Shown here piece after piece: positions 20,868 to 37,649 of a stretch of 64,000 nt of DNA (positions are counted from its first letter, which is position 1; every line of letters begins with the position of its first letter). The stretch is from Asanoa iriomotensis (GTDB lineage: Bacteria > Actinomycetota > Actinomycetes > Mycobacteriales > Micromonosporaceae), in the NCBI RefSeq assembly GCF_016862515.1, contig NZ_BONC01000002.1:186001-250000 (forward strand). Reading direction: 5' to 3'. The notes below the pieces were generated by a model. The model worked only from the letters and a program-made list of their open reading frames with translations. It had not been told where the DNA came from and made no database searches. Both the position numbers and the translations under genes were made by a program.

Positions 20868-21785
20868 TCAGATCCCGCGCCCGTAGCGGTGCAGCGTCGA
20901 CAGCACGTTGTCCACCTTGACCGCACCGGTCATCGCGGCCACCGCGATCGCCGTGCGCGGCTCGCGCCAGTTCGCGCGGACGGCCTCCCGGGTCCACTTC
21001 CATGCCTCGGCCCGGTTGCCGGTCGCCGCGTTCCAGCAGGCGAGCTGCCCATACACCCGGGCCGCGCCGGGCGGGCAGCCCCGGATCTCCGGATGCCGCT
21101 CCATCATCCAGCGCAGCGACGAGATCTTCGTCTGGTACTCGTACACGTAATGCGACGACCGCCCCCACAGCACCTGCACCAGCGGCTCGTCGACGTGCGC
21201 GATCGGGTGCCGGCGCGCGGCCCGCAGCAGCAGGTCCCAATCCTCGTTCTGCGAGCCGGGCGCGTCCTCCGCGACCAGGCCGATCCGGTCCGACTCGACC
21301 AGCGCCGTGCGCCGGATAACGAACGTCGACGAGTGCAGCATCGCCATCCGGGAGCGGGCCAGCTCCGCGACACCGACCGAGGCCATCCCGGCCAGCCGCG
21401 GGGTGACCTTTCCCTTGTACGACACCGCGATCGCGCACGTCGAGAACTCGGCCGACGAGGCGAGCAGCGCCGGCACCTGCACCCGCAGCTTGTCCGGCGC
21501 CCACTCGTCGTCGTCATCACAGAACGCGACGAGCTCCGTGTCCAGGGCGAGGATGCCGCTGTTGCGCGTGCCGGCCAGCCCGGAGGTGCGCCAGTTCGAG
21601 ATGACCAGCACGGGTACGCCGTCCGTGGTGGCCAGCAGCAGATCGGGCGCGGTCTGGTCGAACGCCACCACGACCCGCAACGGCCCGGGATAGTCCTGCG
21701 CCCGCACCGCCGCCAACGCCTTCCGGAGCAGCTCCGGCCGGTTCCGGGTCGGTATCACCACGCCGACCGACGGCCACGCGTTCAT
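20868..21785 (-). CDS. Family 2 glycosyltransferase
   Basis: An inverting GT-A glycosyltransferase of 305 residues, acting at the cytoplasmic face. It opens with VGVVIPTRNRPELLRKALAAV, then LRVVVAFDQ and GLAGTRNSGILALDTELVAFCDDDDEW, where the DDD run is the nucleotide-sugar/metal site. EDWDLLLRAARR is the acceptor-side catalytic segment. The C-terminus (about 60 residues) is a helical tail without a membrane span. It is translationally coupled to the sulfotransferase gene (4-bp overlap at 21782-21785). Its place at the edge of the polysaccharide locus suggests that it adds a sugar to the repeat unit; donor and acceptor are unknown. Confidence 0.9.
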   Translation of the reverse strand: MNAWPSVGVVIPTRNRPELLRKALAAVRAQDYPGPLRVVVAFDQTAPDLLLATTDGVPVLVISNWRTSGLAGTRNSGILALDTELVAFCDDDDEWAPDKLRVQVPALLASSAEFSTCAIAVSYKGKVTPRLAGMASVGVAELARSRMAMLHSSTFVIRRTALVESDRIGLVAEDAPGSQNEDWDLLLRAARRHPIAHVDEPLVQVLWGRSSHYVYEYQTKISSLRWMMERHPEIRGCPPGAARVYGQLACWNAATGNRAEAWKWTREAVRANWREPRTAIAVAAMTGAVKVDNVLSTLHRYGRGI

Positions 21786-22729
21786 CGCGTACCCCCGCGG
21801 GAGACCATGACCGGATAGCCGTACGCCCGCAGCAGCGGAGCGCACACCGCACCGACCAGGCGGCGGTCCGTGGCGGGCAACCCGCGCAGCCAGCCGTCGT
21901 CGCGGCGCAGCGGGATCCGACCGACCGAGAAGCGCATCGGGTTGCCGGCCGCGCTGTGTCCGACGCTGAGATCGGCGTGCGCCTCGGAGAGGAAGTCCAG
22001 ATCGGACTCACCGAGGCTGAGCCCGGCGAAGGACGCCAACGACGAGAGCCCCGCCCGCGGATCCGCGACGAACTGCTCGTACCGGACCCGCAGCAGCGGC
22101 ACACCTCGCCGGGCGAGCAGGCCGAAGGCCGCGTTGTGCGCGTTCCAGAGCATCGCCGAGCGGCCGGGGGAGTAGCGCGTCATCTCGCTCTCGCCGTCGG
22201 CCTCGGGTCGGGACACCACCTTGGTCCAGCTGTGCGCGACACCCCGCGGGTCCCGCACGACGTGCGCCACCCGCAGGTCGAGCCCGGTCGACCAGCGCAG
22301 GCAGTGCGCGAGCGCGCTGTGCTTCGACGAGTCCACGAGCACGGACGCCCCGGTCACCTCGGCGGCGGCGCGGTAGACCGCGGTGTAGTAGCCGGCGTAC
22401 TCCCGCACCTGGGCCCGGTAGTCGTCGGGGAGCCGGGGCGAGGCGAGCCGCGGGATGTGCCGAGTGCGTTCCACGGCCGCTTGCAACGCCAGCACGCGGT
22501 AGACGTCGACGTTGGCCCAGCCGCCGAACGCGACCTCACCCACCCGGGTCCAGAACTCGCACGCGGCGAACCGCTCCCCGCACCCGCACCGCTCGTTGGC
22601 GCGGATGTCGCGTTGCCAGAGGTGCACGACCTCCCCGAGCGCGCAGACCCCGGGCAGCTCACCGAGCAGCCGTTCGACCAGCGTGGTGCCGCTGCGGCCC
22701 AGCCCGCCGACGAAGAGAAGCCGTGCCAC
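21782..22729 (-). CDS. PAPS-dependent sulfotransferase
   Basis: A 315-residue sulfotransferase. The 5'-phosphosulfate loop is FVGGLGRSGTTLVERLL (residues 6-22) and the 3'-phosphate motif is VAHVVRDPRGVAHSWTKV. The segment LVDSSKHSALAHCLR lies between them as in bacterial Sulfotransfer_1/3 proteins. Two cysteine pairs (CGCGERFAACEFW) in the N-terminal third are like those of a group of actinobacterial sulfotransferases. It starts at GTG 22729, with GGTGGG upstream. It transfers sulfate from PAPS to an acceptor hydroxyl, here probably a sugar of the locus's glycan, inferred from its coupling to a glycosyltransferase gene. Confidence 0.88.
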   Translation of the reverse strand: MARLLFVGGLGRSGTTLVERLLGELPGVCALGEVVHLWQRDIRANERCGCGERFAACEFWTRVGEVAFGGWANVDVYRVLALQAAVERTRHIPRLASPRLPDDYRAQVREYAGYYTAVYRAAAEVTGASVLVDSSKHSALAHCLRWSTGLDLRVAHVVRDPRGVAHSWTKVVSRPEADGESEMTRYSPGRSAMLWNAHNAAFGLLARRGVPLLRVRYEQFVADPRAGLSSLASFAGLSLGESDLDFLSEAHADLSVGHSAAGNPMRFSVGRIPLRRDDGWLRGLPATDRRLVGAVCAPLLRAYGYPVMVSRGGTR

Positions 22730-22779
22730 TTTTACCCACCTTCGCTCGTTTCAACCACATAACGAGCGGGAGAGCCGAA

Positions 22780-23547
22780 GTGTCGCTTCATTATGGATTT
22801 GCCCGAGTTCACCTGGACGGCTCGCGGCTCCACATGATCACCGAGCGCCGAGTGGTGGCCGTGGTGCGGCGTGCCCTCGCGAGGGGGCACGGCGGCCGCA
22901 TCCTGACCCCGAACGTGGACATTGTGCGGCGGGCCCGATCGTGCCCCGAGGTGCAGTCCTTTCTGGAGGATGCCACCCTGGTCGTCGCCGACGGCATGCC
23001 GCTGGTCTGGGCCAGCCGGCTCGCCCGCAACCCGCTGCCCGAACGGGTCACCGGATCCAACCTGATCTGGTCGCTCTCCGCCGGTCTGGCCGCCGACGCC
23101 CGGTCCGTGTTCGTCCTCGGCGGCGACACCCCGGACATCGCCGAGCGGGCCGCCGACCGCCTCGCCACGGAGTTTCCCGGCCTGTCCGTCGCCGGCCACC
23201 GCTCGCCACCGTTCGGCTTCGACGCCGACCCGGGCGCGGTGGACGAGGCGGTCACCGCGGTCGCCGAGGCCGGACCGGACCTGGTCTTCGTCGGCATCGG
23301 CTTCCCCCGGCAGGAAAGGCTGATCGGCCGGCTGCGGGCGGCGCTGCCCGCAGCCTGGTTCCTCGGCTGCGGGATGGCCGTCAACTTCGTGGCCGGGCAC
23401 CAGCACCGCGCCCCGGCCTGGATGCAGCGCGCCGGCCTGGAGTGGGCACACCGCCTCACCCGCGAGCCCCGCCGGCTGGCCCGCCGCTACCTGCGCCACG
23501 ACGCCCCGTACGCGCTGAAGCTCCTGGCAACCGCGACGAAACGCTAA
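22780..23547 (+). CDS. WecG/TagA/CpsF-family glycosyltransferase
   Basis: A GT26-family enzyme of 255 residues that adds the second sugar to a lipid-linked monosaccharide. All family motifs are present in order: TPNVDIVRRA (Thr and Asn), VVADGMPLVWASRL (catalytic Asp), ERVTGSNLIW, VFVLGG, FVGIGFPRQERLI, GCGMAVNFVAG and the C-terminal membrane-binding tail RAPAWMQRAGLEW...RLTREPRRLARRY. The GTG at 22780 is chosen because GGGAGAG precedes it; an in-frame GTG at 22723 would overlap the divergent sulfotransferase start. It is the only rightward gene inside the locus; its stop overlaps the stop of the convergent GH26-like gene by three bases. No priming phosphoglycosyltransferase for it is in the window. 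Confidence 0.93.
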   Translation: MSLHYGFARVHLDGSRLHMITERRVVAVVRRALARGHGGRILTPNVDIVRRARSCPEVQSFLEDATLVVADGMPLVWASRLARNPLPERVTGSNLIWSLSAGLAADARSVFVLGGDTPDIAERAADRLATEFPGLSVAGHRSPPFGFDADPGAVDEAVTAVAEAGPDLVFVGIGFPRQERLIGRLRAALPAAWFLGCGMAVNFVAGHQHRAPAWMQRAGLEWAHRLTREPRRLARRYLRHDAPYALKLLATATKR

Positions 23548-24542
23548 GGCTTGCCACCGGACAACTCCGACGCCAGTTCCTGGAACGCGCCGAACGCCGG
23601 CTCGTCGTCGGAGATCTTGAAATGCAGGGTGCGCGGGTTGTCGTCCGGGTCGGAGTCGAAGTACGCGACCGCGCGGATCTGCGGGTTGGCCTTGAAGACC
23701 CGCGTGGCGTCCCTGATCCACTCCGCCCGGCGCTGCGGACCCCACTCCCGCGCCACGCCGAACTCACCCACGATGATCGGCTTGGGCCGCTGCGCCGCCC
23801 ACTTGAGGAAGTTGCCCATGAGCTCGTCCAGCGGCCGGTACTCGCTGCTCGCGTACACGTCGACGCAGGTCCAGTCCACCTGGTCGTCGCCCGGGTAGAA
23901 CAGCGGCGCGTCACCCCGGTCGAAGCCCTCGGCCGTCGGGCACCAGACCCACGACGCGTTCGTCGCGCCCTCCGCCTTGAAGATCTGCCGGGTGTACTTC
24001 CACGCCGCGATGTAGTCCTCCGGCGACCACATCGTCGCGCGCAGGTTGGGCCGGTCCATCTCCCAGCGGAACCGCATCATCACCGGCTGTTTCGCCTTGG
24101 CGACCCGGCGGGCCTGTTCGCGGATCGTGTCGTCGTGCTGGCCGTCCAACATGGACCGCGTGTCGCCGGAGGCCCAGCTGACCATCACGATGCTGCCGCG
24201 CTTCACGTACTCCTTGTCGGTCTCGGTCCAGAACTTCTCGTCGAACGTGCGGTAGGTGTTGATGACGTCGAACCGCCGACCCAGCGACTTCTCCACGCCG
24301 GCGACCGCCTCCCTGCGCCCCGCCTGTCCCCACACCGACGGCTTGACCCACGCGCCGACCCAGACCTTGTCGCCCGGCGCCTTGACCGGCCCGCTGTCGA
24401 ACGGTCCGGTCTTCGTCGCCACGCCGGCCGGGCGCCGGCCGAAATCGGCCGAGGGCGCGGGCTTCGGGGTGGTCGCGGTGCAGGCGGCCAGTGCGGCCAC
24501 GACGACGACGGACACAACGGCGGCAGGGATACGCGCGACCAC
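23544..24542 (-). CDS. GH26-like glycoside hydrolase, lipoprotein
   Basis: A 332-residue predicted surface-anchored hydrolase. The signal peptide ends in the lipobox LAAC (Cys21). The catalytic barrel resembles GH26 (beta-mannanase/related): the likely acid/base is Glu161 in MMRFRWEMDRPN and the nucleophile Glu260 in PIIVGEFGVA. WVWCPTAEG, VDWTCVDVYAS and YFDSDPDDNPRTLHF are other GH26-type features. GTG 24542 follows AAAGAGGAG by four bases. It is the last gene of the polysaccharide operon (41 bp after the flippase gene) and probably trims or releases the chain; the linkage is not known. Confidence 0.85.
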   Translation of the reverse strand: MVARIPAAVVSVVVVAALAACTATTPKPAPSADFGRRPAGVATKTGPFDSGPVKAPGDKVWVGAWVKPSVWGQAGRREAVAGVEKSLGRRFDVINTYRTFDEKFWTETDKEYVKRGSIVMVSWASGDTRSMLDGQHDDTIREQARRVAKAKQPVMMRFRWEMDRPNLRATMWSPEDYIAAWKYTRQIFKAEGATNASWVWCPTAEGFDRGDAPLFYPGDDQVDWTCVDVYASSEYRPLDELMGNFLKWAAQRPKPIIVGEFGVAREWGPQRRAEWIRDATRVFKANPQIRAVAYFDSDPDDNPRTLHFKISDDEPAFGAFQELASELSGGKP

Positions 24543-24583
24543 GTTTCTCCTCTTTCGTCGGACGGGCCGTAAACCCGTGGCTG

Positions 24584-26164
24584 TCAACGCCGGCGACCGG
24601 GACGCAGCGCCCGCAAAGCGTCCAACGCCAAAGGCCGGCGCAGGAGGCGGAGACCAGCCAGATAGGTGACGCCCGCGACACCCAGCGCGACAACCGTCGC
24701 GAGTGGACCACCACCGAGGACGAGCCCGACCACCCGCGGCGCGACGCCGAAGCTGACCACCGTGACGGCGGCCGCGGACAGCCAACCCGCACCGAACGGG
24801 TGGAGCCGCAGCCCGAACCCGACCTGAGCGAGCGGCAGCACGTTGTTGGCCACGACGGCCGCCGCGAGCCCGATCGCCGCACCGAGCGCGCCGAGCCGCG
24901 GGATCAGCGCCAGGTCCAGCGCGATCGTCAGGCCGAGCGCGACCAGCACGTTGCCGAGGTTCCAGGACGTCCGCCCGGCCATCGACAGCACGATGTCGAC
25001 CATCCCGCAGCCGGTCGCGACCAGCATCGCGGCCGCCAGCACCAGGACGATCGACCCGCCGTCCCGGAAGGCCGGGCCGAAGACGCTCAGATAAGCGGGC
25101 GCGTACGTCATCACCAGCAGATACAGCGGCCAGGTCAGCAGGATCAGCCACCCGGTCGCGGTCTGGTAGAGGGTGTTGGCGGCGGCCCGGTCCTTGACCG
25201 CGAGCGCCTCGGCCAACCTCGGCTGGACCGCCTGCGTGATGCCCTGGTTGGCGAACTGCCCGAGCACCACGAACCGCCCGGCGACCGCGTAGAGGCCGGC
25301 GGCGCCGAGCCCGGCCAGCGCGGCGACCAGCAGCACGTCGACCCGTTGCAGGGCGAGTTGCGCGACCGAGGCGACCGAACGCGGCCCAGTGAACCGCCAG
25401 AACGCCTTGCGCATGCTGGCCCGGTGCGACCGCTTCACCCGGGTCGGCACGATGTCGGCCATGGTCTGCGCGTGAGCCCGGCGCAACGCGTAAGCCGCCA
25501 GGAGCGCGGTCGGCACGTACGGCAGCGCCCAGGCGAGCGCGAACAGGCTCGGCCCGGCCGCACCGCTGAACGCGACCGCCGCGACGCCGAGCGTCTGCAG
25601 CCCGGGCCGGACCAGCTTGTCCAGCAGCACGGTCGGCCGGATCAGCCGGTAGCCGCGGGTGGCGGCGAGCAGCGTGTCCGACAGCACCGCCAGCGGCACG
25701 AACGCCGCCAGCAGGTGCAACTGCCGGACCAGTTCGGCGCGTACGGCCGGCGACGCGTCGCCCGCGGTCAGCCGGGCTAGCTCCGGCGCGGCCGCGAACA
25801 GCACCACGCCGACCGTGAGGGCGGCGCACGCCACGGGCGTGAACGCGCTGCGCAGGCAGGCGCCGAGCAGGAAACCGTGGCCGCGCGCCCGCAACCGGGC
25901 CGGCCAGTAGACCAGCCCGGTCTGTGTGCCCAGCTTCGCCAGCGTCGAGGTGAGCACGAACGCCGCGGTCGCGGCGAAGAACGCGCCCGCGTGCTCGGGG
26001 CCGAGCCGGTGCGCGACCAGCCAGGTGACCGCGAGCCCGGCGAGCCCGGCCACGCCGGCGCCGAGGATCCCCGCGACCCCGCCCCGCGCGACTCCGCCGA
26101 TCGCCTTCTTCGTCTCGGCGGCGTCGGTGGGCGCGTCGGCGAGGAAGGCGGGCGGGGCGGTCAC
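24584..26164 (-). CDS. Polysaccharide flippase (MATE/MurJ-like oligosaccharidyl-lipid exporter superfamily)
   Basis: An integral membrane protein of 526 residues with about 12-14 helices. It begins, after about 20 residues, with GGVAGILGAGVAGLAGLAVTWLVAHRLGPEHAGAFF, typical of Wzx-like/polysaccharide-synthase proteins. Features include LDKLVRPGLQTLGV, the conserved basic loop RVKRSHRASMRKAFWRFTGPRSVAS, and LYAVAGRFVVLGQFANQGITQ. The basic C-terminal tail is RALRPGRRR. It probably flips the lipid-linked repeat unit to the outer face. GTG 26164 overlaps the stop of the upstream sulfotransferase gene by 4 bp. Some membrane segments are read open far upstream, but that part is antisense-like and not included. 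Confidence 0.9.
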   Translation of the reverse strand: MTAPPAFLADAPTDAAETKKAIGGVARGGVAGILGAGVAGLAGLAVTWLVAHRLGPEHAGAFFAATAAFVLTSTLAKLGTQTGLVYWPARLRARGHGFLLGACLRSAFTPVACAALTVGVVLFAAAPELARLTAGDASPAVRAELVRQLHLLAAFVPLAVLSDTLLAATRGYRLIRPTVLLDKLVRPGLQTLGVAAVAFSGAAGPSLFALAWALPYVPTALLAAYALRRAHAQTMADIVPTRVKRSHRASMRKAFWRFTGPRSVASVAQLALQRVDVLLVAALAGLGAAGLYAVAGRFVVLGQFANQGITQAVQPRLAEALAVKDRAAANTLYQTATGWLILLTWPLYLLVMTYAPAYLSVFGPAFRDGGSIVLVLAAAMLVATGCGMVDIVLSMAGRTSWNLGNVLVALGLTIALDLALIPRLGALGAAIGLAAAVVANNVLPLAQVGFGLRLHPFGAGWLSAAAVTVVSFGVAPRVVGLVLGGGPLATVVALGVAGVTYLAGLRLLRRPLALDALRALRPGRRR

Positions 26165-27033
26165 CGGCGCCAGACCGGCGGGTGGCCGAGCCACTCGGTC
26201 AGGCGCTCGTCGTGCGCCGCGAAGTGTGCGGTGAGGTCCCGCCGGGTGCGCGCGTCCATCGCGGACTCGCGCGGCCGGGCGTTGTGCCGCTCGAACGGTG
26301 GGTAGCCGAGGTTCGGCAGCCCGAGGAACCCGAGTACCTCGTCGTAGACCGCCTCGGGGGTGGCGAAGAACCGCTCGCTCTCCACCACCAGGATCTGGTC
26401 CCGGCCGACCCGGGTCGCCATGGCGGCCAGGTACGACGCGTACTCGCCGCGCGCCCGGTAGGCGTGGTGTTGGTGGGCGAAGCTGTAGTAGGTCGGGTCG
26501 TCCGCGAGCCGTTCCTCCTGCCCGTGCAGCCGGCCCGGCTCGAGCGCCAGCGCGCGGGCGAACGACGGCTCCGCCTCGAACCCGCGGGCCAGCTCGTGCG
26601 CGTGCTGCGAGTAGGCCCGCTCGACCGGGTCGCGGACCAGCGTGACGAGCTTGACGCCGGGCAGGTCGCGGGCGATCCGGGCGGCCGCGTGCGGGTGGTA
26701 CATGTAGTACGGGCTCGACTCGAAGGTCTGTGCCGGCACGCCGAAGCGTTCCTCGACCTTCGTCGCGGTGCGCTGCAACGGGAAGTGCCCGCGATACCAG
26801 GCCAGGCCGTGCTGATACGAGGTGTCGAAGTAGTGCACGCCCTTGTGCAGCACGGCTTTGAGCACCACCGGATGCGCGGCCAGCGCGCGGTAGAGCGAGG
26901 TCGTGCCGCACCGCTGGCCGCCGCAGATCAGGAACGACGGCAACATCCGGGCTGGCGCGGTGATCCGCCCGTACGATCGCGATCCGAAGTGGACGACCCG
27001 CTTTACCGGGTTCGGGACATGTGACGACTTCAC
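26161..27033 (-). CDS. PAPS-dependent sulfotransferase (second in locus)
   Basis: A 290-residue sulfotransferase. The 5'-phosphosulfate loop is FLICGGQRCGTTSLYRAL (34-51) and the 3'-phosphate motif VKLVTLVRDPVERAYSQHAHE. KGVHYFDTSYQHGLAWYRGHFP is the segment seen in heparan N-deacetylase/sulfotransferase-like and carbohydrate O-sulfotransferase relatives, so a glycan acceptor is plausible. GTG 27033 lies in a GTGA overlap with the kinase gene stop. It sits in the middle of the polysaccharide operon between kinase and flippase, which argues that sulfation happens on the cytoplasmic repeat unit before export. It is not closely similar to the sulfotransferase at 21782. Confidence 0.9.
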   Translation of the reverse strand: MKSSHVPNPVKRVVHFGSRSYGRITAPARMLPSFLICGGQRCGTTSLYRALAAHPVVLKAVLHKGVHYFDTSYQHGLAWYRGHFPLQRTATKVEERFGVPAQTFESSPYYMYHPHAAARIARDLPGVKLVTLVRDPVERAYSQHAHELARGFEAEPSFARALALEPGRLHGQEERLADDPTYYSFAHQHHAYRARGEYASYLAAMATRVGRDQILVVESERFFATPEAVYDEVLGFLGLPNLGYPPFERHNARPRESAMDARTRRDLTAHFAAHDERLTEWLGHPPVWRR

Positions 27034-29677: not shown

Positions 29678-31490
29678 TGTTGGTCGAGCGGTCCATGTCA
29701 CGGAGCGTCTCGTTGTCGAGCCGGCGAAGCACCGCGGTGTCCGGGTCGGTCTCGTGCTTGGTGCGGGCCGCCGCCGGCCGGTTGCGGACCCGGGCCTGGC
29801 CGGCCAGGTTGATGCCCGCGACGCTCAGGTCGCCGGAGTCGTCGACGCCGGCGCGAGCCCGGGCCCGGGGCAGTTCGCGCGCCAGGTCGCCGGACTCGTC
29901 GAGGTCGCGCAGGTCGTCGAAGTCCGGTGCGTCGTCGTCCTGGTTGAAGTCGGCCTCGTCGTCGCCGTGGCGGTTCTCGACGCCCGGTGCCAGCTTCGGG
30001 ATGACCACCGTGCCCAGCAGCGGAGTGCCGACCCGGGTGAGCTGGGCGACCGCGTCGACCACCTCCGGCCGGCGGGTGCGGCGCAGCTCGACGGTGAGGA
30101 TCGCGGCGTCGGCGAGCCGGGCGAGGCTCTGCGCGTCGGCGCTGCTGGCCGTTGAGGGCGCGTCGATCACGATGTACCAGTCGCGGCGGCGGAGCTGGGC
30201 GAGCACCTGGCGCAGCGCCTGCGACTGGAGCAGACCGCCGGCGCTGCCGGTGCCGCCCGTGGTGACGACCCGCAGCGACGGCACGCGCGGCGCCCGCTGC
30301 ACGGCGGCGCGCAGCGCGACCTTGCCGGTCAGCACGTCGCCGAGCCCCGGCGTCGCACCGACCCCGAACAGCCGGGCCAGCGGCGCGGCGTCCACCAGGC
30401 TGTCCGGCAGGTGGGCGCCGAGCAGCACGACCTCGCTGCCGCTGCGGGCCATGGCGGCGGCCAGGTTCGCGGCGACCAGGGTGGAGGCGACGCCCCGGCT
30501 GGCACCCGCGACCACCACCACCCGGTCCTCGGTGCGCAGGCTGGCCAGCACCTCGTTGCGCAGGCGGTTGAAGGTGCGGCCGCCGGCGGCGTACGGCTGG
30601 AAGATCTCGTCGAGCTGTGGTCCGGAGGCGATGGTCAGCTCGGCCAGCACCGGCACGCGGGCGACCCGCTCGACGTCACCGGCCGCACGGACGCGGCGGT
30701 CGAGCCGCTCCCGGACCACCGCGATCGAGAGGCCGAGCAGCAGACCCAGCATCGCGCCGGTGGCCAGGTTGAGCTTCTTGTTGGGCTTGCTGGGCGTGTC
30801 CGGCAGCTGCGCGTCACTGATGATCTTGCCGGCGCTGACCGTCTCCGTGGTCAGGTCGTTCAGCTTGCCGCTGATCGAGTTGAGCTGGCTCTGGTTGGTG
30901 CTGCGCTGGCTCTCCAGGCTCGGGCGCGACGCGCTCCCGTCGGACAGCCCGGCCAGCTTCGAGTTGATCTGGGTCAGGTTCTGGTTGAGCTGCTTGACCT
31001 TGGTGGTCAGCGCCGAGATCTGTGCGTCGATGCCGGCCTGGGCGCTGGCCTCGCGGTTGCGCAGGTACGCCTCGGCGAAGGCGTGCGAGCCGGCCTGGGC
31101 GCGGGCCGGGTCCGCCGCCTTGTAGGTGATCTCCAGGACCGCGGTGTTCGCCGGGACCGTCACCGAGACGCCCTTGGCCAGCACGTCCGGCGCGTCGCCG
31201 GCGCGGAGGAGCTCGGCGGCGCCTACCGCGATCTGGGTCGAGCCGACGAGCTGCGCCTCGGTGTCGAGGTTGATGTCGCCCTTGGTGCGCCCGCCGGCCA
31301 CGTTGGTGTCCTGGCCGGCCGGCTGCACCAGCACCGAGGTGACCGACTCGTAGGTCTTCGGCATGGCCTGGGTCGCCCCGAACCCGCCGCCGATGCCGAG
31401 CGCGCATCCGAGCACCACCAGCCACCACTGCCTGCGCAGCAGGCCGAGGTAGTCGGACAGGTCGGGTGCGGTGGGGCCGGTGGTTTCCAC
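29658..31490 (-). CDS. Wzz/Wzc-like chain-length protein with degenerate tyrosine-kinase domain
   Basis: A 610-residue protein controlling polysaccharide length. Residues 10-40 carry the first membrane helix, the extracytoplasmic Wzz loop with coiled-coil heptads runs about 150-225, and the second helix is at 243-258. The cytoplasmic domain has the P-loop tyrosine-kinase fold, but Walker A at 329-337 reads GASRGVAST (no Lys), Walker A' at 354-361 is VVLLGAHL (no Asp) and Walker B at 439-446 is YIVIDAP. There is no C-terminal tyrosine cluster; the tail is acidic and then basic. It is therefore likely an inactive scaffold. GTG 31490 has no Shine-Dalgarno sequence. It is the first gene of the operon. 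Confidence 0.85.
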   Translation of the reverse strand: METTGPTAPDLSDYLGLLRRQWWLVVLGCALGIGGGFGATQAMPKTYESVTSVLVQPAGQDTNVAGGRTKGDINLDTEAQLVGSTQIAVGAAELLRAGDAPDVLAKGVSVTVPANTAVLEITYKAADPARAQAGSHAFAEAYLRNREASAQAGIDAQISALTTKVKQLNQNLTQINSKLAGLSDGSASRPSLESQRSTNQSQLNSISGKLNDLTTETVSAGKIISDAQLPDTPSKPNKKLNLATGAMLGLLLGLSIAVVRERLDRRVRAAGDVERVARVPVLAELTIASGPQLDEIFQPYAAGGRTFNRLRNEVLASLRTEDRVVVVAGASRGVASTLVAANLAAAMARSGSEVVLLGAHLPDSLVDAAPLARLFGVGATPGLGDVLTGKVALRAAVQRAPRVPSLRVVTTGGTGSAGGLLQSQALRQVLAQLRRRDWYIVIDAPSTASSADAQSLARLADAAILTVELRRTRRPEVVDAVAQLTRVGTPLLGTVVIPKLAPGVENRHGDDEADFNQDDDAPDFDDLRDLDESGDLARELPRARARAGVDDSGDLSVAGINLAGQARVRNRPAAARTKHETDPDTAVLRRLDNETLRDMDRSTNNGHSAS

Positions 31491-31676
31491 GGGAGGTTCA
31501 ACGGGCGTGACGGGTAACGCGTAACTCGCCCGTGGGGGGATGAATGGTACAAAAGGCCAGGCCGTCAGTAACCCAGAAAAACGGCTAATGCCCCCAAGTA
31601 GCTAATTTTGGTTAAAGTCGGTCTTGTGCACCATCCGCCACGCCGGCCGCCAGGCGTCACGATGGAGGGAATCTTT
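31491..31676. promoter_or_regulatory. Divergent promoter region of the polysaccharide locus
   Basis: 186 bp between the Wzc-like operon (leftward) and the GH26-like gene (rightward). The central part (31535-31620) is rich in A+T compared with all surroundings, with the stretch AAGTAGCTAATTTTGGTTAA. An inverted CGGGCG...CGCCCG repeat frames ACGGGTAACGCGTAACT at 31503-31532. These fit promoters and an operator, but no exact -35/-10 can be assigned. The right gene has GGAGGG seven bases before its ATG; the left gene has no ribosome site and may be leaderless. Confidence 0.5.
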
Positions 31677-33683
31677 ATGGCCAGACCACTCGGAGCGCGT
31701 GCCGCGCTCGTCGCCGGGCTGACCGGCTTCGCCGTCCTGCTGGGTGTCGTCGGGGGCGCCCTCGGTTCTGACCCGGACCTGCGGCTGACGGCCAGCGCCG
31801 ACGGCTACGCGACGACGACCGGTGAGAGTCCGAGTGGGAGTCGCGTCCAGTTGGTCGCGGGCGGGCTGGGCGCGGGTGCCGCGGTGACCTATCTGAAGTT
31901 CGACGTGACCGGCAAGCGGGCGTCGCGGAAGCCGGCGCGGGCCGAGATCACACTGACCCGGCGGGCCGGCGCGCTGCCGGGGCTGCTGGAGATCAGCGAG
32001 GTGCCGGGCACGTCCTGGCGCGAGGACAGGCTCGACAAGCTGAACGCGCCTCGGCTCGGCTCGGTGATCGCCGCGGCCCGGCCCGGGCGGTCCGACAGGT
32101 CGGTGCGGTTCGACGTTTCCTCGGCCATCAAGGGGCGGGGGACCTATGCGTTCGCCGTGACGGCGGCGGGTGGCGGGCTCGGGGACTTCTACGACGCCGA
32201 CGGTGTGACGGCGGCGCGGGAGTTGGACGCGCCGACGCTGCGGGTGTCGTGGCAGGACGCGGTGCGGCCGTGGGCCGGGATGCCGCAGCCCCCCGTGCCG
32301 CCGGCGATGCCGTCGTTCCCTCGGCCCAGCCTGCCGCCTCCGCCGGACCTGCCAGACCTGCCCGACCTTCCTGGGGTGCCGGACCTGCCGGACATGCCTG
32401 ACCTCCCGGATCTCCCTGACCTGCCGGACCTGCCCGATCTGCCTGGGCTGCCTGGGACGCCGACCGACGATCCGACGGACCCGCCCAGCCCGGACCCGAC
32501 GGACGACCCGACCACGCCGCCGCCGACCACTGCTCCGACGACGCCGCCGCCGACCACTGGTCCGACGACCCCGCCGCCGACCGCTGGTCCGACGACGCCG
32601 CCGCCCACGACGAACCCGACGACGACGCCGCCGACCGCCAACCCGACCACGCCCGCGCCGACGACGCCGCCCACCACCGGGCCGACCTCACCGACGCCGA
32701 CGACCAGCCCGACCGGGCCTGGCGATCCGCGCTGCACGCTCGGGCCGAAGCTCGTACCCACGTGTGGGGCGCTCTGGGGTGTCGCCCCTGGTGCGCACAC
32801 CGACCAGCCGCGTGACGAGGCGCTCGCCGACTTCGAGTCGGACACCGGCCGCACGCAGGCGATCTATCACGCCTACCACCGGGGCACCGAGATCTTCCCG
32901 ACCTCGATGGAGATGCGGATCGCCCGCGACCCCGCCAAGCCGCGCCTGCTCTTCCTCAACTGGAAGCCGACCGGCGCGAGCTGGGCCCAGATCGCCCGCG
33001 GCGACGAGGACACCGACAACTATCTCGATCGGCTGGCCGAGCACATCCGCGACAACTTCACGGAGCCGTTCTTCTTCACGGTGCACCACGAGCCGGAGAA
33101 CGACGTGCGCCCGGCCAGCGGCTCCGGCTACACGGCCACCGACTATCGGAACATGTTCCGGTACGTGATCAACCGGCTGCGCGCCCAGGGCGTGACCAAC
33201 CTGGTCTCGGTGATGGTGCACATGGCGTACATCCCGTGGCTGACCCAGTCGTGGTGGGAGGCGCTGTATCCCGGTGACGACGTGGTCGACTGGCTGGCCT
33301 GGGACGTCTACGCGCACAGCGAGCCCGGGGAGTACGGCTACGGCGACTTCGAGGAGATGATGAACCGCACGTCGAGCAGCGCGCCGAACTGGCCGGGCTT
33401 CTACAACTACGCCGCGGCGAAGCATCCGACCAAGCCGTTCATGCTGGCCGAGTGGGGCGTCTGGTACTCGTCGCGGAACCCCGGTCACATGGCCGAGTTC
33501 TACGACTCGGTGGCCAAGCAGATGTCGCTGTTCCCGCGGATGAAGGCGCTCGTCTATTTCGACACGCCGGCCGACCAGAGCGGCAAGGACTCGCGGGTGA
33601 CCCGGACGTCGGACGGTCTGGCCGCGTACCGCCGGCTGGGTCAGGAACCGACCTTCCAGGTGGACCTGACCCGCAAACCGTGA
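31677..33683 (+). CDS. Secreted GH26-like glycoside hydrolase with DNRLRE-like domain and Pro-rich wall-spanning linker
   Basis: A 668-residue exported protein. Residues 1-33 are a signal sequence or anchor. Residues 35-195 resemble a DNRLRE/CBM96-type beta-sandwich (ADGYATTTG..., YLKFDVTG...). Then comes a linker: about 45 residues of LPDLPD repeats, and about 100 residues of PTTPPPTT/NPTTP repeats. The C-terminal 300 residues form a GH26-like barrel with likely catalytic Glu472 (TVHHEPEN) and Glu592 (MLAEWGVW), and WDVYAHSEPGE and VYFDTP as in the lipoprotein paralogue. GGAGGG seven bases upstream fixes ATG 31677. It could process the glycan outside the wall. It is divergent from the operon and followed by a strong terminator. 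Confidence 0.87.
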   Translation: MARPLGARAALVAGLTGFAVLLGVVGGALGSDPDLRLTASADGYATTTGESPSGSRVQLVAGGLGAGAAVTYLKFDVTGKRASRKPARAEITLTRRAGALPGLLEISEVPGTSWREDRLDKLNAPRLGSVIAAARPGRSDRSVRFDVSSAIKGRGTYAFAVTAAGGGLGDFYDADGVTAARELDAPTLRVSWQDAVRPWAGMPQPPVPPAMPSFPRPSLPPPPDLPDLPDLPGVPDLPDMPDLPDLPDLPDLPDLPGLPGTPTDDPTDPPSPDPTDDPTTPPPTTAPTTPPPTTGPTTPPPTAGPTTPPPTTNPTTTPPTANPTTPAPTTPPTTGPTSPTPTTSPTGPGDPRCTLGPKLVPTCGALWGVAPGAHTDQPRDEALADFESDTGRTQAIYHAYHRGTEIFPTSMEMRIARDPAKPRLLFLNWKPTGASWAQIARGDEDTDNYLDRLAEHIRDNFTEPFFFTVHHEPENDVRPASGSGYTATDYRNMFRYVINRLRAQGVTNLVSVMVHMAYIPWLTQSWWEALYPGDDVVDWLAWDVYAHSEPGEYGYGDFEEMMNRTSSSAPNWPGFYNYAAAKHPTKPFMLAEWGVWYSSRNPGHMAEFYDSVAKQMSLFPRMKALVYFDTPADQSGKDSRVTRTSDGLAAYRRLGQEPTFQVDLTRKP

Positions 33684-33691
33684 CACGCGCG

Positions 33692-33720
33692 CGGGCCCGG
33701 TCCTTTGTGGACCGGGCCCG
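33692..33720. terminator. Bidirectional hairpin terminator
   Basis: 12-bp exact arms (CGGGCCCGGTCC at 33692-33703; complement at 33709-33720) with loop TTTGT, eight bases after the GH26-like stop and 11 bp before the end of the convergent AHSA1-family gene. It can end both transcripts. Confidence 0.8.
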
Positions 33721-33731
33721 TTCGCGTCTGC

Positions 33732-34196
33732 TCAGGACAGCTTGGCCAGGTAGTCGGCCAGGGCGTCGTAGGACTGACCGGCGCCCTCCGACATGCCGGA
33801 GGCGATCATGCCGTCGCGCTCCTCCTTGGTGTCGAACCGGGTGACGCTGGTGACGGTGGTCTTGCCGCCCTCCTCGGTCAGCTCCAGCGTCTCCTCGCAG
33901 ATGTGGCCGGGCATGCCCTCGAACTCGAAGGTCTGCACGATCCGGTCGGGCGCCTGGATGTCCCGGTATTCACCCCGGAAGGCCCAGTCGCCATCGGGCG
34001 CGTGCTCGACGAAGCGCCAGTTGCCGCCGACCCGAAAGTCCATCTCGACGTCGAGCGGATTGCCCCGGCCCCACCAATGCTTGACGTGCTCAGGCTCGGC
34101 ATGCGCCGCGAACACCAAGGCCTTCGGCGCGTCGAACACGCGAACCATCTTGACCTCGAGATCGGACGGCGTGGTCACGGTCAGGTTGTTGGGCAT
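33732..34196 (-). CDS. SRPBCC/AHSA1-family protein
   Basis: A 154-residue START/Bet v1-like protein of the AHSA1 group. The N-terminal VKMVRVFDAPKALVFAAHAEPEHVKHWWG and the central RFVEHAPDGDWAFRGEYRDIQAPDRIVQTFEFEGMPGH are diagnostic. The family binds hydrophobic ligands in a deep cavity or stabilises partner proteins; no specific ligand can be named. It is read from the same transcript as the ArsR-type regulator just upstream (1 bp between stop and start), a pairing that is very common in actinobacteria. Confidence 0.92.
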   Translation of the reverse strand: MPNNLTVTTPSDLEVKMVRVFDAPKALVFAAHAEPEHVKHWWGRGNPLDVEMDFRVGGNWRFVEHAPDGDWAFRGEYRDIQAPDRIVQTFEFEGMPGHICEETLELTEEGGKTTVTSVTRFDTKEERDGMIASGMSEGAGQSYDALADYLAKLS

Positions 34197-34197
34197 C

Positions 34198-34521
34198 TCA
34201 GTTCTCCTTCTGGATCTGCTTCAGGTATGCACCCAGCTCGTCGTAGCGCTCTTCCCAGAACCGCTGGTACGTGGTCACCCAGTTGGCGACCTCACGCAGG
34301 GGAGCCGCATCGAGCCGGCACGGCCGCCACTGCGCTTCCTTGCCCCGAGTGATCAGGCCGGCCTTCTCGAGCACCTTCAGGTGCTTGGAGACGGCCTGCA
34401 GGCTGATCGGAAACGGCTCGGCGATCTGGTTGACCGTCGCCTCCCCCTCCGCGAGCCGAGCCAGAATCGCCCGCCGCGTCGGATCAGCGAGAGCGCCGAA
34501 CACCTCGCTCAGCCGGTCCAC
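34198..34521 (-). CDS. ArsR/SmtB-family transcriptional regulator
   Basis: A winged-helix regulator of 107 residues. VDRLSEVFGALADPTRRAILARLAEGE, INQIAEPFPISLQAVSKHLKVLEKAGL-type recognition helix (here VNQIAEPFPISLQAVSKHLK) and RGKEAQWRPCRLDAAPL are classic. No metal-binding CxC pair of ArsR sensors is present, so it is of the AHSA1-linked class, not a metal sensor. GTG 34521 has GAGGAAGG eight bases upstream; a TTG at 34539 lacks one. It probably represses its own two-gene operon. Confidence 0.9.
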   Translation of the reverse strand: MDRLSEVFGALADPTRRAILARLAEGEATVNQIAEPFPISLQAVSKHLKVLEKAGLITRGKEAQWRPCRLDAAPLREVANWVTTYQRFWEERYDELGAYLKQIQKEN

Positions 34522-34536
34522 GTCCGCCGCCTTCCT

Positions 34537-34566
34537 CAACCACTCGGTTAATTAACTCCTAGGTTG
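34537..34566. promoter_or_regulatory. Candidate operator of the ArsR-AHSA1 operon
   Basis: CAACC at 34537 and GGTTG at 34562 are an inverted pair framing the perfect 10-bp palindrome GTTAATTAAC (34547-34556). It lies immediately before the regulator start and is strikingly A+T-rich for this genome. ArsR proteins bind such imperfect palindromes over their own promoter. The assignment is by position and symmetry only. Confidence 0.45.
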
Positions 34567-34607
34567 AATATGCGCCTCAGGCGGGCCGATGTCAACCGAT
34601 CCTCGGG

Positions 34608-35357
34608 CTAGGCCGCTTCGGCGGCCTCCGTGCGGGCGGTCCAGTCCGGCATCGTGCCGTGGCGGCCGTGCTGGGTGCGGAGCACGTGCTCGTATTCCGC
34701 GCAGACCTCGTCGCCCAACAGCGTCATCCGGTGCTCGAAGGTCCCGGGCACGACGACTCGGCCGCGCACGCCGCCGGTCATGATCCAGTATTCCCTGATG
34801 ATCGGGCTGGAGAAGAGATATCTGAATGTGCTTTGCAGCTCGGTTTCGCTGAAGTCGCTGATCTGAAGCTGGAGCCAATTGTGCTGGAGGATCAGGTTCG
34901 CATAGAGGTACTGCCGGTGTCGCTCGATCGAGTCCGTCACCTTTGGCCACACGCTGGCCAGATCCGGGTCGGCGATCGACATCTTCACCAGATCGACGTG
35001 CAGCCGGCGAAGGTCGGCCTCGGCACTTCGGTGCAGTTCTGCCTGCGTCCGCACGAGTGAATCGCGCTGGACCGCCAACTCGGCCCGCTGCGACCGCAGT
35101 TCCGTGAATTGCATCCAGAAGGTCACCACAACGGCAGCCAGCGCCAAGCCGGAAAAGATCGCGTTCAGCAGACCGAAGGCCTCTCCGACATTCGCCCGGA
35201 CCGTCCAGTCCGCGTCCGTCGCGGTGCCCGCGATCGCGCTGGAAGCCGCGAGGCCGACGACGAGCGCACCGGCGACGCCGGCCAGCAGCAGGACGGCCCA
35301 GGACAGGAGCCGGCGGGCCCGCCAGAGCGCTCTCTCGCCCATCACTGGTTCGCCCAT
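34608..35357 (-). CDS. DUF6082-family membrane protein
   Basis: A 249-residue protein with two membrane helices (about 18-42 and 60-83), a coiled-coil segment (FTELRSQRAELAVQRDSLVRTQAELHRSAE, about 84-115) and a C-terminal soluble domain. The region from HVDLVKMSIADPDL to FSSPIIREYW is characteristic of DUF6082, a family frequent in Streptomyces and Micromonosporaceae and of unknown function. The end is GTMPDWTARTEAAEAA. ATG 35357 is preferred; TTG 35369 is also in frame. No co-transcribed partner is visible. Confidence 0.75.
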   Translation of the reverse strand: MGEPVMGERALWRARRLLSWAVLLLAGVAGALVVGLAASSAIAGTATDADWTVRANVGEAFGLLNAIFSGLALAAVVVTFWMQFTELRSQRAELAVQRDSLVRTQAELHRSAEADLRRLHVDLVKMSIADPDLASVWPKVTDSIERHRQYLYANLILQHNWLQLQISDFSETELQSTFRYLFSSPIIREYWIMTGGVRGRVVVPGTFEHRMTLLGDEVCAEYEHVLRTQHGRHGTMPDWTARTEAAEAA

Positions 35358-35658
35358 GTCGTCGTCCAATGTCTAGGCAAGGCGAAAAGAACGAAAGGGC
35401 AGCAGCGTTTTGCGGATCGTCATACCTAGATGTTGACAGCACGATGCTAACCTGCGCCACAGCGTTGACGTGGGCGCCCGTGAATGAATGGAATGATCGC
35501 CATGTCGCAGTCGGCTGGTCGGCATGGAGCGGCACCCCGTTCTGCCACCTGGCATCGAGAAATTGCAAGCGGGATGCGTCGCCCTGCAAACGCTATACCG
35601 CGCTATCGCCTTTGGCGAGCCTTGCAATATTTCTCGTCGCGTTCTTTCGGGGCGGCGG
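35358..35658. other. 301-bp gap without a supported gene
   Basis: Lower in G+C than the rest of the window, particularly 35370-35460 and 35570-35650. It should carry the leftward promoter of the DUF6082 gene. A TTGACA-like string lies at 35414, but no matching -10 lies at the right distance on that strand. Short open frames cross it in several directions, none with a ribosome site or a recognisable product. No RNA gene is seen. Confidence 0.4.
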
Positions 35659-35946
35659 TCACTTGCCGATCCCGAGCTCCTGCCGATCTATATCGCGCAG
35701 AGCGGCCAACATGACCTCGCGGGGGAGCACCACGATCCGTTCCTCGGCGGCCCGGGCGGCGCGCAGCGCCCGGAGTTCGTGGTCGAGGTGGGCGGTGGCG
35801 TCCAACCCCATGACGGCGAACCGTCCGTCGGCGAGCTCGAACACGTCGGGGCAGGTCACGTTCGTGCCGCAGCGCTCCGCGGGGGCCGAGCCGTGGCGGC
35901 GAACGATCTTCATCGACTCGCCGGCAACCATGTCGGTCACGCCCAT
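35659..35946 (-). CDS. Small conserved hypothetical protein
   Basis: A protein of up to 95 residues. The core SAPAERCGTNVTCPDVFELADGRFAVMGLDAT looks like a group of small actinobacterial proteins with CPxVxELxDGxFAVxG, often found near XRE/DUF397 regulator pairs, though no such pair is adjacent here. The C-terminal half is helical and charged (HLDHELRALRAARAAEERIVVLPREVM). The start is uncertain: ATG 35946, 35931 or 35913 are all possible and none has a strong ribosome site. Its function is unknown. Confidence 0.6.
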   Translation of the reverse strand: MGVTDMVAGESMKIVRRHGSAPAERCGTNVTCPDVFELADGRFAVMGLDATAHLDHELRALRAARAAEERIVVLPREVMLAALRDIDRQELGIGK

Positions 35947-36104
35947 GCCCCCAGGGAAAGAGTCAAAACGGACAAATCCATACTTCCACAGCGCACCGGT
36001 ACCAACGCGTCCGCTGTCAGGCGTGTCGGCCCGGCATCAGACCATGGTAACCACTAAAAGTGTTTGCGGACGCCCGGGGCAGGGAGATCAGCCCTTGAAG
36101 CGAG

Positions 36105-37649
36105 TCAGAGCTTGGGCTCGACCCAGCCTGTTTCGGTGAGGTGGTGGAGGACCGCGTCCACGGCCTCGTCGACGCTCAGCTGGCTCGTGTCGATCGTGAG
36201 TTCCGCGTCGACCGGGGCCTCGTACGGGTCGTCGATGCCCGTCATGCCCTTGATCAGGCCCGCCCGTGCCTTCGCGTACAAGCCCTTGCGGTCCCGGCGC
36301 TCGCAGACCTCCAGTGGCGTCGACACGTGGACCAGCACGAAGCCCGCCCCCGCGTCCGTCGCCATCTGGCGGGCCGTTTTCCGGGCCGACGCGTACGGTG
36401 CGATCGGGCAGCAGATCGCCATCCCCCGGTGCCGGGCCACCTCGGCCGCCACCCAGCCGATGCGGCGGATGTTCAGGTCGCGGTCTTCCTTGCTGAAGCC
36501 CAGGCCGGCCGACAGCTCCCGCCGCACCACGTCACCGTCGAGCAGCGTCACGGTGCGGTCGCCGGTCTCGCGCAGGTGGTCGGCGACGCCCCGCGCCACC
36601 GTCGACTTGCCCGAACCCGACAGGCCGGTCATGAAGACCACCAGGCCCCGATGGCGGCGCGCCGGCCGTGCCCGGGCCAGTTCCTTCGCCACCGCCGGCG
36701 GGGTGTGCCACTCCGGGAGCGGGAAGCCCCGGTCCAACAGGTCGTCGATCTCGTCGTTCGTGAGCGCCAACCGGCGGTTCCGCGGCGGGATGTCGTCGCG
36801 CCAGCGCCACTGGCCGTCGCGGTTGTCGTAGGCCAGTTCCCGCGGCACCAGGACCCGCGGGCCGCCGCCCGAGAGCATCTCGCCCGTCGACAGCAGGTGG
36901 GTCACGCCGTAGGCCGAGGCCACCCGGGCCCGCAGCAGCGCGTCCCGGATCTCGTCACCGCGGCGCACCAGCGGCACCGCGACCAGCGTCGCCGGGGGCA
37001 TCCGGTCGCGGGCCGCGAACACCGTGCGGACCAGCACCTCGGGTGACAAACCACCGGGGCCGGCATCGCCGACCGGGATCAGGACCAACAGATGTGCGGC
37101 GAGGGTACGCGCCGCGTGCGCGATCTGCGCCAGCTGCGGCCGGTGCAGCGGGCGGTCGGCGACCACGCCCAGCACCCGGCCCGGTGGCAGCAGGTCGCGG
37201 ACCTCGGCCGGTGTGCGTCGCAGCCGCTGGAACGGGCCGTGCCGGCCGTCGCCGAGCTGGCGGACCGTGCCACCCACCCCGTAGCGGCCGTCGCGCGTCG
37301 GCCACGCGTCGTTGACCTCCAGCGCCGCGATCGGGGCGCCCTCCTGGTCGGTCAGGACGACCGACCGCTGCGCCGGATCCGACAGCTCCAGGCCGAGCGC
37401 CAAGCCCTCCGGGATCTCCAGGGTCACCGGTAGGGGCCACGGCGTCCCGTCCTCCAGGCGCCCCCGCCGCTGCAGCGACAACAGGTCGATCCGACCCAGG
37501 AAGCCGGTGAGCGGGGCGTACGCGCCGGAGAGCAGCAGCTCAAGGTCCGCGAGCTCGGACGGCCGGGGGTTGTACGCCGGCGCGTCGCGCAGCATCTCGT
37601 CGGGCATCAGCCACCCGCGCTCGCTCAACCCCAACCCCCTCTTGTCCAT
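36105..37649 (-). CDS. cysC: Adenylyl-sulfate kinase with degenerate ATP-sulfurylase-like N-terminal domain
   Basis: Makes PAPS from APS and ATP. The C-terminal 180 residues of 514 are a complete APS kinase: P-loop GLSGSGKST (342-350), DGDVVRRELS, FSKEDRDLNIRRIGWVA and CPIAPYASARK, then the FVLVHVSTPLEVCERRDRKGLY lid. The first 330 residues have the layout of ATP sulfurylase (PUA-like domain, then catalytic domain), but the HxxH-type site that should read QxRNPxHxxH reads VADRPLHRPQ (163-172), and the GRDxAG motif is replaced by VGDAGPGG. Sulfurylase activity is therefore doubtful. ATG 37649 is used; ATG 37607 is an alternative. It may supply the two sulfotransferases of the polysaccharide locus. 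Confidence 0.87.
   Translation of the reverse strand: MDKRGLGLSERGWLMPDEMLRDAPAYNPRPSELADLELLLSGAYAPLTGFLGRIDLLSLQRRGRLEDGTPWPLPVTLEIPEGLALGLELSDPAQRSVVLTDQEGAPIAALEVNDAWPTRDGRYGVGGTVRQLGDGRHGPFQRLRRTPAEVRDLLPPGRVLGVVADRPLHRPQLAQIAHAARTLAAHLLVLIPVGDAGPGGLSPEVLVRTVFAARDRMPPATLVAVPLVRRGDEIRDALLRARVASAYGVTHLLSTGEMLSGGGPRVLVPRELAYDNRDGQWRWRDDIPPRNRRLALTNDEIDDLLDRGFPLPEWHTPPAVAKELARARPARRHRGLVVFMTGLSGSGKSTVARGVADHLRETGDRTVTLLDGDVVRRELSAGLGFSKEDRDLNIRRIGWVAAEVARHRGMAICCPIAPYASARKTARQMATDAGAGFVLVHVSTPLEVCERRDRKGLYAKARAGLIKGMTGIDDPYEAPVDAELTIDTSQLSVDEAVDAVLHHLTETGWVEPKL

Follow-up and report, generated by a model that had tools for sequence, protein, structure and literature searches.

Why does an actinomycete keep two sulfotransferase genes in a locus for polysaccharide export, with an enzyme of sulfate activation close by? 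The question is raised by a 64,000-nucleotide stretch of the Asanoa iriomotensis genome (8.57 Mb in 187 contigs; contig NZ_BONC01000002.1, positions 186,001 to 250,000, hereafter the window), in which an initial annotation, made from the letters alone, had read a glycan that is sulfated before export. We consider it highly probable that the locus (20868-31490 plus 36105-37649) is a Wzx/Wzy locus for a sulfated cell-surface heteropolysaccharide and the counterpart of wps-1 of Actinoplanes missouriensis, described in June 2026 (PMC13390465), and the earlier interpretation is supported. The same proposal has been published for a close relative; new here are the breadth of the locus, the reading of its adenosine 5'-phosphosulfate (APS) kinase as serving sulfation only, a link to an operon of a polyprenyl glycosylphosphotransferase (PGT) with cysQ, cysD and cysN, and the kinship of WpsH with heparan-sulfate sulfotransferases.

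All named genes are open frames at the coordinates first given, the evidence being the frames themselves and Pfam, with the Wzy frame as the weak spot. A minus-strand series runs from 31490 down to 23544 and encodes a WpsK-like chain-length protein of Wzz/Wzc type (29658-31490; PF02706 and PF13807, Wzz and GNVR; TIGR01005 4e-29, below cut-off), a WpsJ-like polytopic membrane protein, presumed to be the Wzy polymerase (28286-29701), a WpsI-like kinase (27030-28289, TTG start), a WpsH-like sulfotransferase of heparan-sulfate type (26161-27033; PF00685/PF13469, Sulfotransfer_1/3), a WpsG-like Wzx flippase (24584-26164; PF01943, Polysacc_synt, 1e-7) and a WpsE-like lipoprotein of glycoside hydrolase family 26 (GH26; 23544-24542). 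A separate two-gene unit on the same strand holds the first sulfotransferase, WpsB-like and of the type that uses 3'-phosphoadenosine 5'-phosphosulfate (PAPS) (21782-22729; PF13469, Sulfotransfer_3, 4.6e-13), and a WpsA-like GT2 glycosyltransferase (20868-21785; PF00535, 1.1e-17) whose ATG lies inside the wpsB stop (ATGA). Between the wpsE-like gene and this pair the WpsC-like WecG/TagA/CpsF glycosyltransferase (22723-23547; PF03808, 5.1e-56; TIGR00696, 128.6 bits against a cut-off of 69) stands alone on the plus strand, and its sequence makes an ATG near 22834 a better candidate for the start codon than the GTG of the frame list. Overlaps of 4 bp occur at the junctions J/I, I/H, H/G and B/A, and because of those at its own junctions, GTGA on both sides as first reported, the second sulfotransferase gene is placed inside the Wzx/Wzy operon. 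The flippase and chain-length protein expected of a Wzx/Wzy-dependent locus are both present by Pfam. The APS kinase (CysC; 36105-37649, minus strand; PF01583, 5.8e-57) was rightly recognised as such, but the protein proved to be a fusion with a decayed ATP-sulfurylase domain (PUA_2/ATP-sulfurylase-like N-terminus); the GH26 lipoprotein, the kinase-like gene and a second, probably secreted GH26 protein with a CBM96-like domain (31608-33683) were absent from that annotation.

The wps-1 cluster (AMIS_7280-7380) has as its neighbour AMIS_7390, a sulfate adenylyltransferase/APS kinase, and its description lists the genes in sequence as wpsA (GT2), B (sulfotransferase), C (WecG), D (DUF4262), E (GH26), F (methyltransferase), G (Wzx), H (heparan-type sulfotransferase), I (kinase-like), J (Wzy) and K (Wzz), then AMIS_7390 (PMC13390465). 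The window is alike in gene kinds and order, both sulfotransferases and the neighbouring APS-kinase fusion included, a likeness judged by those features and via Actinoplanes italicus and others rather than from the AMIS_7280-7390 sequences, that genome lying outside our set of named loci (below); 36105-37649 is the counterpart of AMIS_7390 by place and kind. Unlike wps-1, the window has neither the DUF4262 gene (wpsD) nor the S-adenosylmethionine methyltransferase gene (wpsF), for which its gene order leaves no room, and it carries GH26-CBM96, AHSA1 and DUF6082 genes between wpsK and the kinase; in A. italicus (L090) the DUF4262 and methyltransferase genes are both present at the expected places. 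Both wps-1 and AMIS_7390 are required for normal sporangia: deletion of the cluster gives squashed sporangia and ~10^3 instead of 10^7 released spores, the wpsH and AMIS_7390 deletions are severe, with the wpsH deletion resembling that of the whole cluster, whilst the wpsD deletion is normal and wpsF is not dispensable (PMC13390465). Its authors propose a sulfated exopolysaccharide and leave the chemistry unproven, and a literature search on actinomycete sulfotransferase loci returned, among the matches listed, nothing on the locus beyond this paper, which makes the earlier remark that such polymers are not established in this group a fair one (PMC13390465).

How widely the gene set is kept was followed in 80 named loci, the best 80 of 553 confirmed WpsH relatives, with groups assigned from record titles; the Micromonosporaceae group (38 of 80) is the remainder and includes the metagenome-assembled records L104 (Actinobacteria bacterium) and L121 (Modestobacter sp.). 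All eight core genes (A, B, C, G, H, I, J and K) occur in 58 of the 80, namely 19 of 29 Streptosporangiales, 11 of 13 Glycomyces/Stackebrandtia and 28 of 38 others, nearly all Micromonosporaceae; since these 58 loci also hold the seven partners of H, the association is more than chance. Beside H the most constant gene is I (79 loci), then G (78), J (77) and K (75); the secreted GH26 has a match in 66 loci, A, B and C occur in 62 apiece, the APS-kinase fusion in 51 and WpsE in 33. The conservation of the sulfotransferase pair with Wzx, Wzy and Wzc genes, which the initial annotation had put forward as a check, was therefore observed (B alongside H in 62 of 80), and eight of the 18 loci without B are stretches under 15 kb. 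Asanoa ishikariensis has the locus most like that of the window (WpsH 93%, core genes 85-93%). Forty family places were hand-picked to cover genera (nine of their genomes are also among the named loci), and 32 of them hold all eight core genes; across 160 family genomes, 143 have a WpsH match at E<=1e-10, many of the weaker ones probably paralogs. Genera with the locus include Actinoplanes, Catellatospora, Longispora, Dactylosporangium, Streptosporangium, Nonomuraea, Microbispora, Planotetraspora and Actinomadura. Several locus-bearing genera form, to our knowledge, no sporangia, nor do we know of any in Asanoa; the polymer is thus probably not sporangium matrix alone, and it is probably a component of spores or of the structures that bear them.

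Beyond the family, a class sample gave WpsH matches at 1e-70 in 44 of 246 genomes, with none among the 19 listed there from other families of the same order, and a phylum sample gave matches at 1e-40 in 27 of 396 genomes (our own and one family genome counted). Twenty stretches from 25 hit genomes of other classes comprised eight with B, H, Wzx and a Wzy-like gene, two more with H, Wzx and a Wzy-like gene, and ten without. A divergent locus type (L065, L067, L068, L069 and L278; the first four are among the 40 hand-picked places) has G, H, I, J and K plus B-A, E in some, with no WecG match and ~35-56% identity, and genomes G016 and G030 carry both types. In L309 (G021) an APS-kinase fusion adjoins sulfotransferase B and GT2 A, the Wzx/H/Wzy part being absent; this may be a remnant or a reduced form.

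The locus itself holds no priming transferase, as had been said, but it need not borrow an unknown enzyme for that step, because the genome offers a candidate elsewhere. A PGT gene (PF02397; L241:8075-9649) is followed after 22 bases by a CysQ-like gene and then by cysD and cysN (contig C7), all on one strand. To relate this operon to the locus we built a two-by-two table by hand from 61 family genomes (G000-G060), counting as with locus those with WpsH at >=56% identity (39 genomes; the eight core genes were seen in one stretch for 22, plus the window) and as without (16) those with no WpsH match, a match of <=45% identity, or E values of 1e-17 to 1e-56 where identity was unlisted, some of which hold a remote locus relative (L066 for G003). 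PGT stands beside cysQ in 36 of 39 genomes with the locus versus 0 of 16 without (Fisher 3e-11, overstated as kinship is ignored). G034 and G060, each with a lone WpsH-like gene (59-61%) beside the kinase (L314, L064), were counted as without, and counting them as with gives 36/41 versus 0/14; G023 and G045 (divergent type only; PGT 0/2) were kept outside and would make the second count 0/18; G002 (CysQ fragments only) and G027, G038 and G059 (no CysQ match) were dropped. Within one genus (g22), G022 has both PGT and locus and G053 neither. The operon abuts wpsA in G035 and lies within ~5 kb of it in G040, G012 and G050, and in 13 of the 80 named loci, all Streptosporangiales by title, PGT (L134: edge only), cysQ, cysD and cysN lie in the fetched stretch. 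When eleven Streptosporangiales loci were mapped, the operon was beside wpsB in nine, with the APS-kinase fusion there too in eight of those nine; L113 and L118 showed no PGT-cysQDN operon within their stretches. In Nonomuraea jabiensis (L156), ~17 kb (the operon Pfam-checked) hold matches for priming, sulfate activation, PAPS formation, two sulfotransferases, removal of 3'-phosphoadenosine 5'-phosphate (PAP), a flippase, a presumed polymerase and chain length.

An alternative with something in its favour is that the glycan is sulfated but the PGT-cysQDN linkage is an inherited neighbourhood, priming being of the WecA type usual for WecG-family partners: the genome has two PF00953 places (one may be MraY) besides four PF02397 places, WecG/TagA enzymes act, as far as we know, on WecA/TagO products, and the genomes in the linkage count are not independent. 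However, PGT is beside cysQ in none of the locus-free genomes even though cysD is beside cysQ in 15 of those 16, the linkage is lost within one genus, and it recurs in another order; we therefore hold WecA-type priming to be unlikely, and the priming step absent from the locus is probably carried out by the PGT encoded with cysQDN.

The two sulfotransferases were compared with proteins of solved structure. The WpsH profile found as its top PDB match 3rnl (5.8e-35), a chain labelled just "Sulfotransferase", and matched over nearly its full length the heparan-sulfate enzymes 3-OST-5 (3bd9, 1.7e-26) and N-sulfotransferase NDST (1nst, 2e-25); on these profile matches WpsH is related to heparan-sulfate sulfotransferases, a new observation. 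The WpsB profile gave weak matches alone, to polyketide-synthase-associated and tyrosine sulfotransferases. In the WpsB alignment (A2) G..GRSG.TL and VRD are invariant in 12 of 12 rows, and key nucleotide-loop residues are invariant in both A1 (WpsH, 14 rows) and A2, with some loop columns differing in the remotest rows; both proteins thus carry what are presumably the 5'-phosphosulfate loop and 3'-phosphate motif of PAPS-dependent sulfotransferases. Modification of a lipid or small metabolite, leaving the polysaccharide unsulfated, could be argued from the best, weak match of WpsB, to a polyketide-synthase sulfotransferase, from the mild wpsB deletion (PMC13390465) and from mycobacterial PAPS, which serves sulfolipids (PMC4373884). 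Yet WpsH is of heparan-sulfate type and its gene overlaps that of Wzx by 4 bp, its deletion looks like that of the whole cluster (PMC13390465), and PGT, cysQDN and both sulfotransferase genes are found together with Wzx/Wzy, and we judge a non-polymer target improbable. Two related loci (L064 and L314, g34) have a lone WpsH-like gene (~60% identity) adjoining the APS-kinase fusion, without polysaccharide genes, and one of another class (L231, G184) has five WpsH-like places and a relative of the fusion within 20 kb.

The supply of PAPS points the same way. The genome has a single strong APS-kinase match (195.9 bits; a second, of 40 positions, barely passes the cut-off of 21.1, at 21.6), CysD then CysN, and one CysH. 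ATP sulfurylases carry the signatures QxRNxxHxxH and GRDHA, the QTRN part of which is seen in the Penicillium sequence. Across 78 rows of the fusion (77 from 120 loci plus the window; 74 distinct) neither motif was found in any, whilst the kinase P-loop G[LFY]SG[SA]GKST is present in all 78, and the 404-residue fusion of N. jabiensis (L156) leaves the sulfurylase model unmatched at 0.001. With these motifs missing, the 36105-37649 protein was rejected as a maker of APS, and sulfurylase activity appears, from the sequences, to have been lost. The nearest solved relative, 3cr8 of Thiobacillus denitrificans, likewise departs from the sulfurylase motifs, and a literature search for activity data on that fusion found nothing. 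CysH cysteines CC..RK and C..C, which we take to be the APS-reductase motif, were seen in all 30 loci inspected, 27 of them by script and 3 by all-frame reading, out of 44 genomes with a match. A kinase fusion without sulfurylase motifs and a CysH of APS-reductase type together suggest that the kinase probably serves sulfation alone; deletion of AMIS_7390 would then starve WpsB and WpsH of PAPS, which would explain a phenotype that its authors termed "unexpected" and tied to sulfur amino acids (PMC13390465). In the class sample WpsH accompanies the fusion (E<=1e-110) in 12 of 14 genomes (our own and two family genomes counted) and occurs in 32 of the 232 that lack it (Fisher 1.9e-8, again overstated by ignoring kinship). 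That 36105-37649 serves cysteine synthesis, the AMIS_7390 phenotype being sulfur starvation as its paper suggests, fits the annotated family (sulfate adenylyltransferase/APS kinase) and its occurrence with or without the locus, but is the least probable alternative of all given 0 of 78 rows with sulfurylase motifs, the presence of CysDN and an APS-reductase-type CysH, and a mutant without visible difference on the paper's agar media (PMC13390465). The link to PAPS first drawn from the neighbouring kinase is strengthened by this single strong match, by the motif-based CysH type and by CysDN and CysQ beside the locus in Streptosporangiales.

For the sulfated heteropolysaccharide that we favour, CysDN would make APS and the kinase would convert it to PAPS; the PGT would load a first sugar onto the lipid carrier, WpsC and WpsA would lengthen it, WpsB and WpsH would sulfate the lipid-linked unit on the inner face, before export, and CysQ would clear PAP. 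WpsI may phosphorylate a sugar, after which WpsG would flip the unit, WpsJ polymerise it and WpsK set its length, with the GH26 lipoprotein and the secreted GH26 trimming the polymer outside.

Several points weigh against this reading. No chemistry was found for any member of the locus, and Wzy is confirmed by no model: the WpsJ-like frame matched no Pfam or NCBIfam model, its predicted structure (helical; predicted local distance difference test score, pLDDT, 79.5) matched nothing in the PDB at E<=0.001, and it is presumed to be Wzy from its position and the O-antigen-ligase-like domain given for its counterpart (PMC13390465). Deletion of wpsB is mild there, with normal-looking sporangia and ~tenfold fewer spores, which makes WpsB not essential (PMC13390465). 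The NCBIfam APS-reductase model scores our CysH at 215.0 against a cut-off of 235.3, broader CysH models being passed, and its type is therefore assigned by motif. The CysQ-like protein scores 87.2 bits against a curated 228.8 for TIGR01331; named CysQ by family and place, it is firmly placed only in the inositol-phosphatase family. PGT is missing beside cysQ in 3 of the 39 genomes (G013, G024 and G030), and in G024 CysQ does not adjoin CysD. The fusion occurs in 159 of 160 family genomes, including those without a WpsH match, which implies other uses for PAPS, and in none of 13 fetched Glycomyces/Stackebrandtia stretches, against an exclusive tie of kinase to locus. A third sulfotransferase-like place (G000:C26:57625-57957; searched with PF13469 alone) is another possible PAPS user in the genome.

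Better-known systems offer partial parallels. The capsule clusters of Cobetia marina KMM 1449 and Vibrio sp. KMM 8419, like the window, combine sulfotransferases with PAPS genes (cysN, cysD and cysC; in Cobetia also cysQ) in a polysaccharide locus, their sulfated capsule structures are solved, and the Vibrio authors call PAPS genes with sulfotransferases a hallmark of sulfated polysaccharide synthesis, the signature that the L156 gene set presents (PMC11766843, PMC11641403). Unlike the window, they use ABC-transporter export and belong to marine hosts of another phylum. Synechan (xss) of the cyanobacterium Synechocystis, likened here by description only, is a bacterial sulfated exopolysaccharide made with sulfotransferases (PMC8205485). 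The CysNC branch of Mycobacterium tuberculosis similarly divides APS between CysH, for cysteine, and APS kinase, for sulfotransferases, but its kinase is fused to CysN, whereas that of the window is fused to a decayed ATP-sulfurylase domain (PMC4373884).

The remaining genes add detail to this picture. WpsI scores 21.0 bits with an APH-like Pfam model (cut-off 23.2), its alignment keeps HGD....N and WD.ER in 23 of 23 rows, and its model (pLDDT 87.4; Foldseek 4e-7 to 3jr1) comes closest in fold to fructosamine kinase, APH and maltokinase, whose TM-scores to the query are a modest 0.34-0.45; "protein kinase" was rejected on this predicted fold, and the acceptor is likely a sugar or lipid-linked sugar. 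In A. italicus wpsA is followed by genes for a DeoR regulator and a galactose-1-phosphate uridylyltransferase (L090:18827-20688), which, taken with the kinase-like WpsI, may be a hint of galactose in the polymer. The WpsK-like protein, by eye, has no lysine at the place where we would expect it in Walker A. WpsE (PF02156, 3.6e-6; lipobox LAAC) matches PDB endoglucanase H at 2e-16, aligning with it both glutamates that we take to be catalytic in GH26; a loose lipobox pattern occurs in 19 of 32 relatives, starts being uncertain in the remainder. The probable secreted GH26 (plus strand, divergent to wpsK) has a Pro/Thr linker as well as its CBM96-like domain (PF24517, 9e-6; PF02156, 2e-4). Low-G+C (0.65) genes for AHSA1-domain and DUF6082 proteins (33732-35369) separate it from the APS kinase, and as the two are adjacent in relatives such as L036, this segment looks like an insertion in the Asanoa lineage.

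A wider proposal, to which we give slightly less than even weight, is that the glycan resembles heparan sulfate and comes from a dedicated assembly line in which priming of the lipid carrier is joined with sulfate activation (PGT-cysQ-cysD-cysN plus a kinase-only APS kinase). As a surface polymer it would be ancestral to the spore-forming actinomycetes and would predate sporangia, and other classes of the phylum would hold divergent relatives. Sulfated polysaccharides are regarded as rare in bacteria; if the sulfated reading is true, such a polymer belongs to the ordinary surface of terrestrial actinomycetes in at least two orders. The AMIS_7390 phenotype would gain a testable reason, shortage of PAPS rather than of cysteine, the comparison names a candidate priming enzyme, and the bacterial sulfotransferases of heparan-sulfate type collected here are offered as candidates for heparinoid synthesis.

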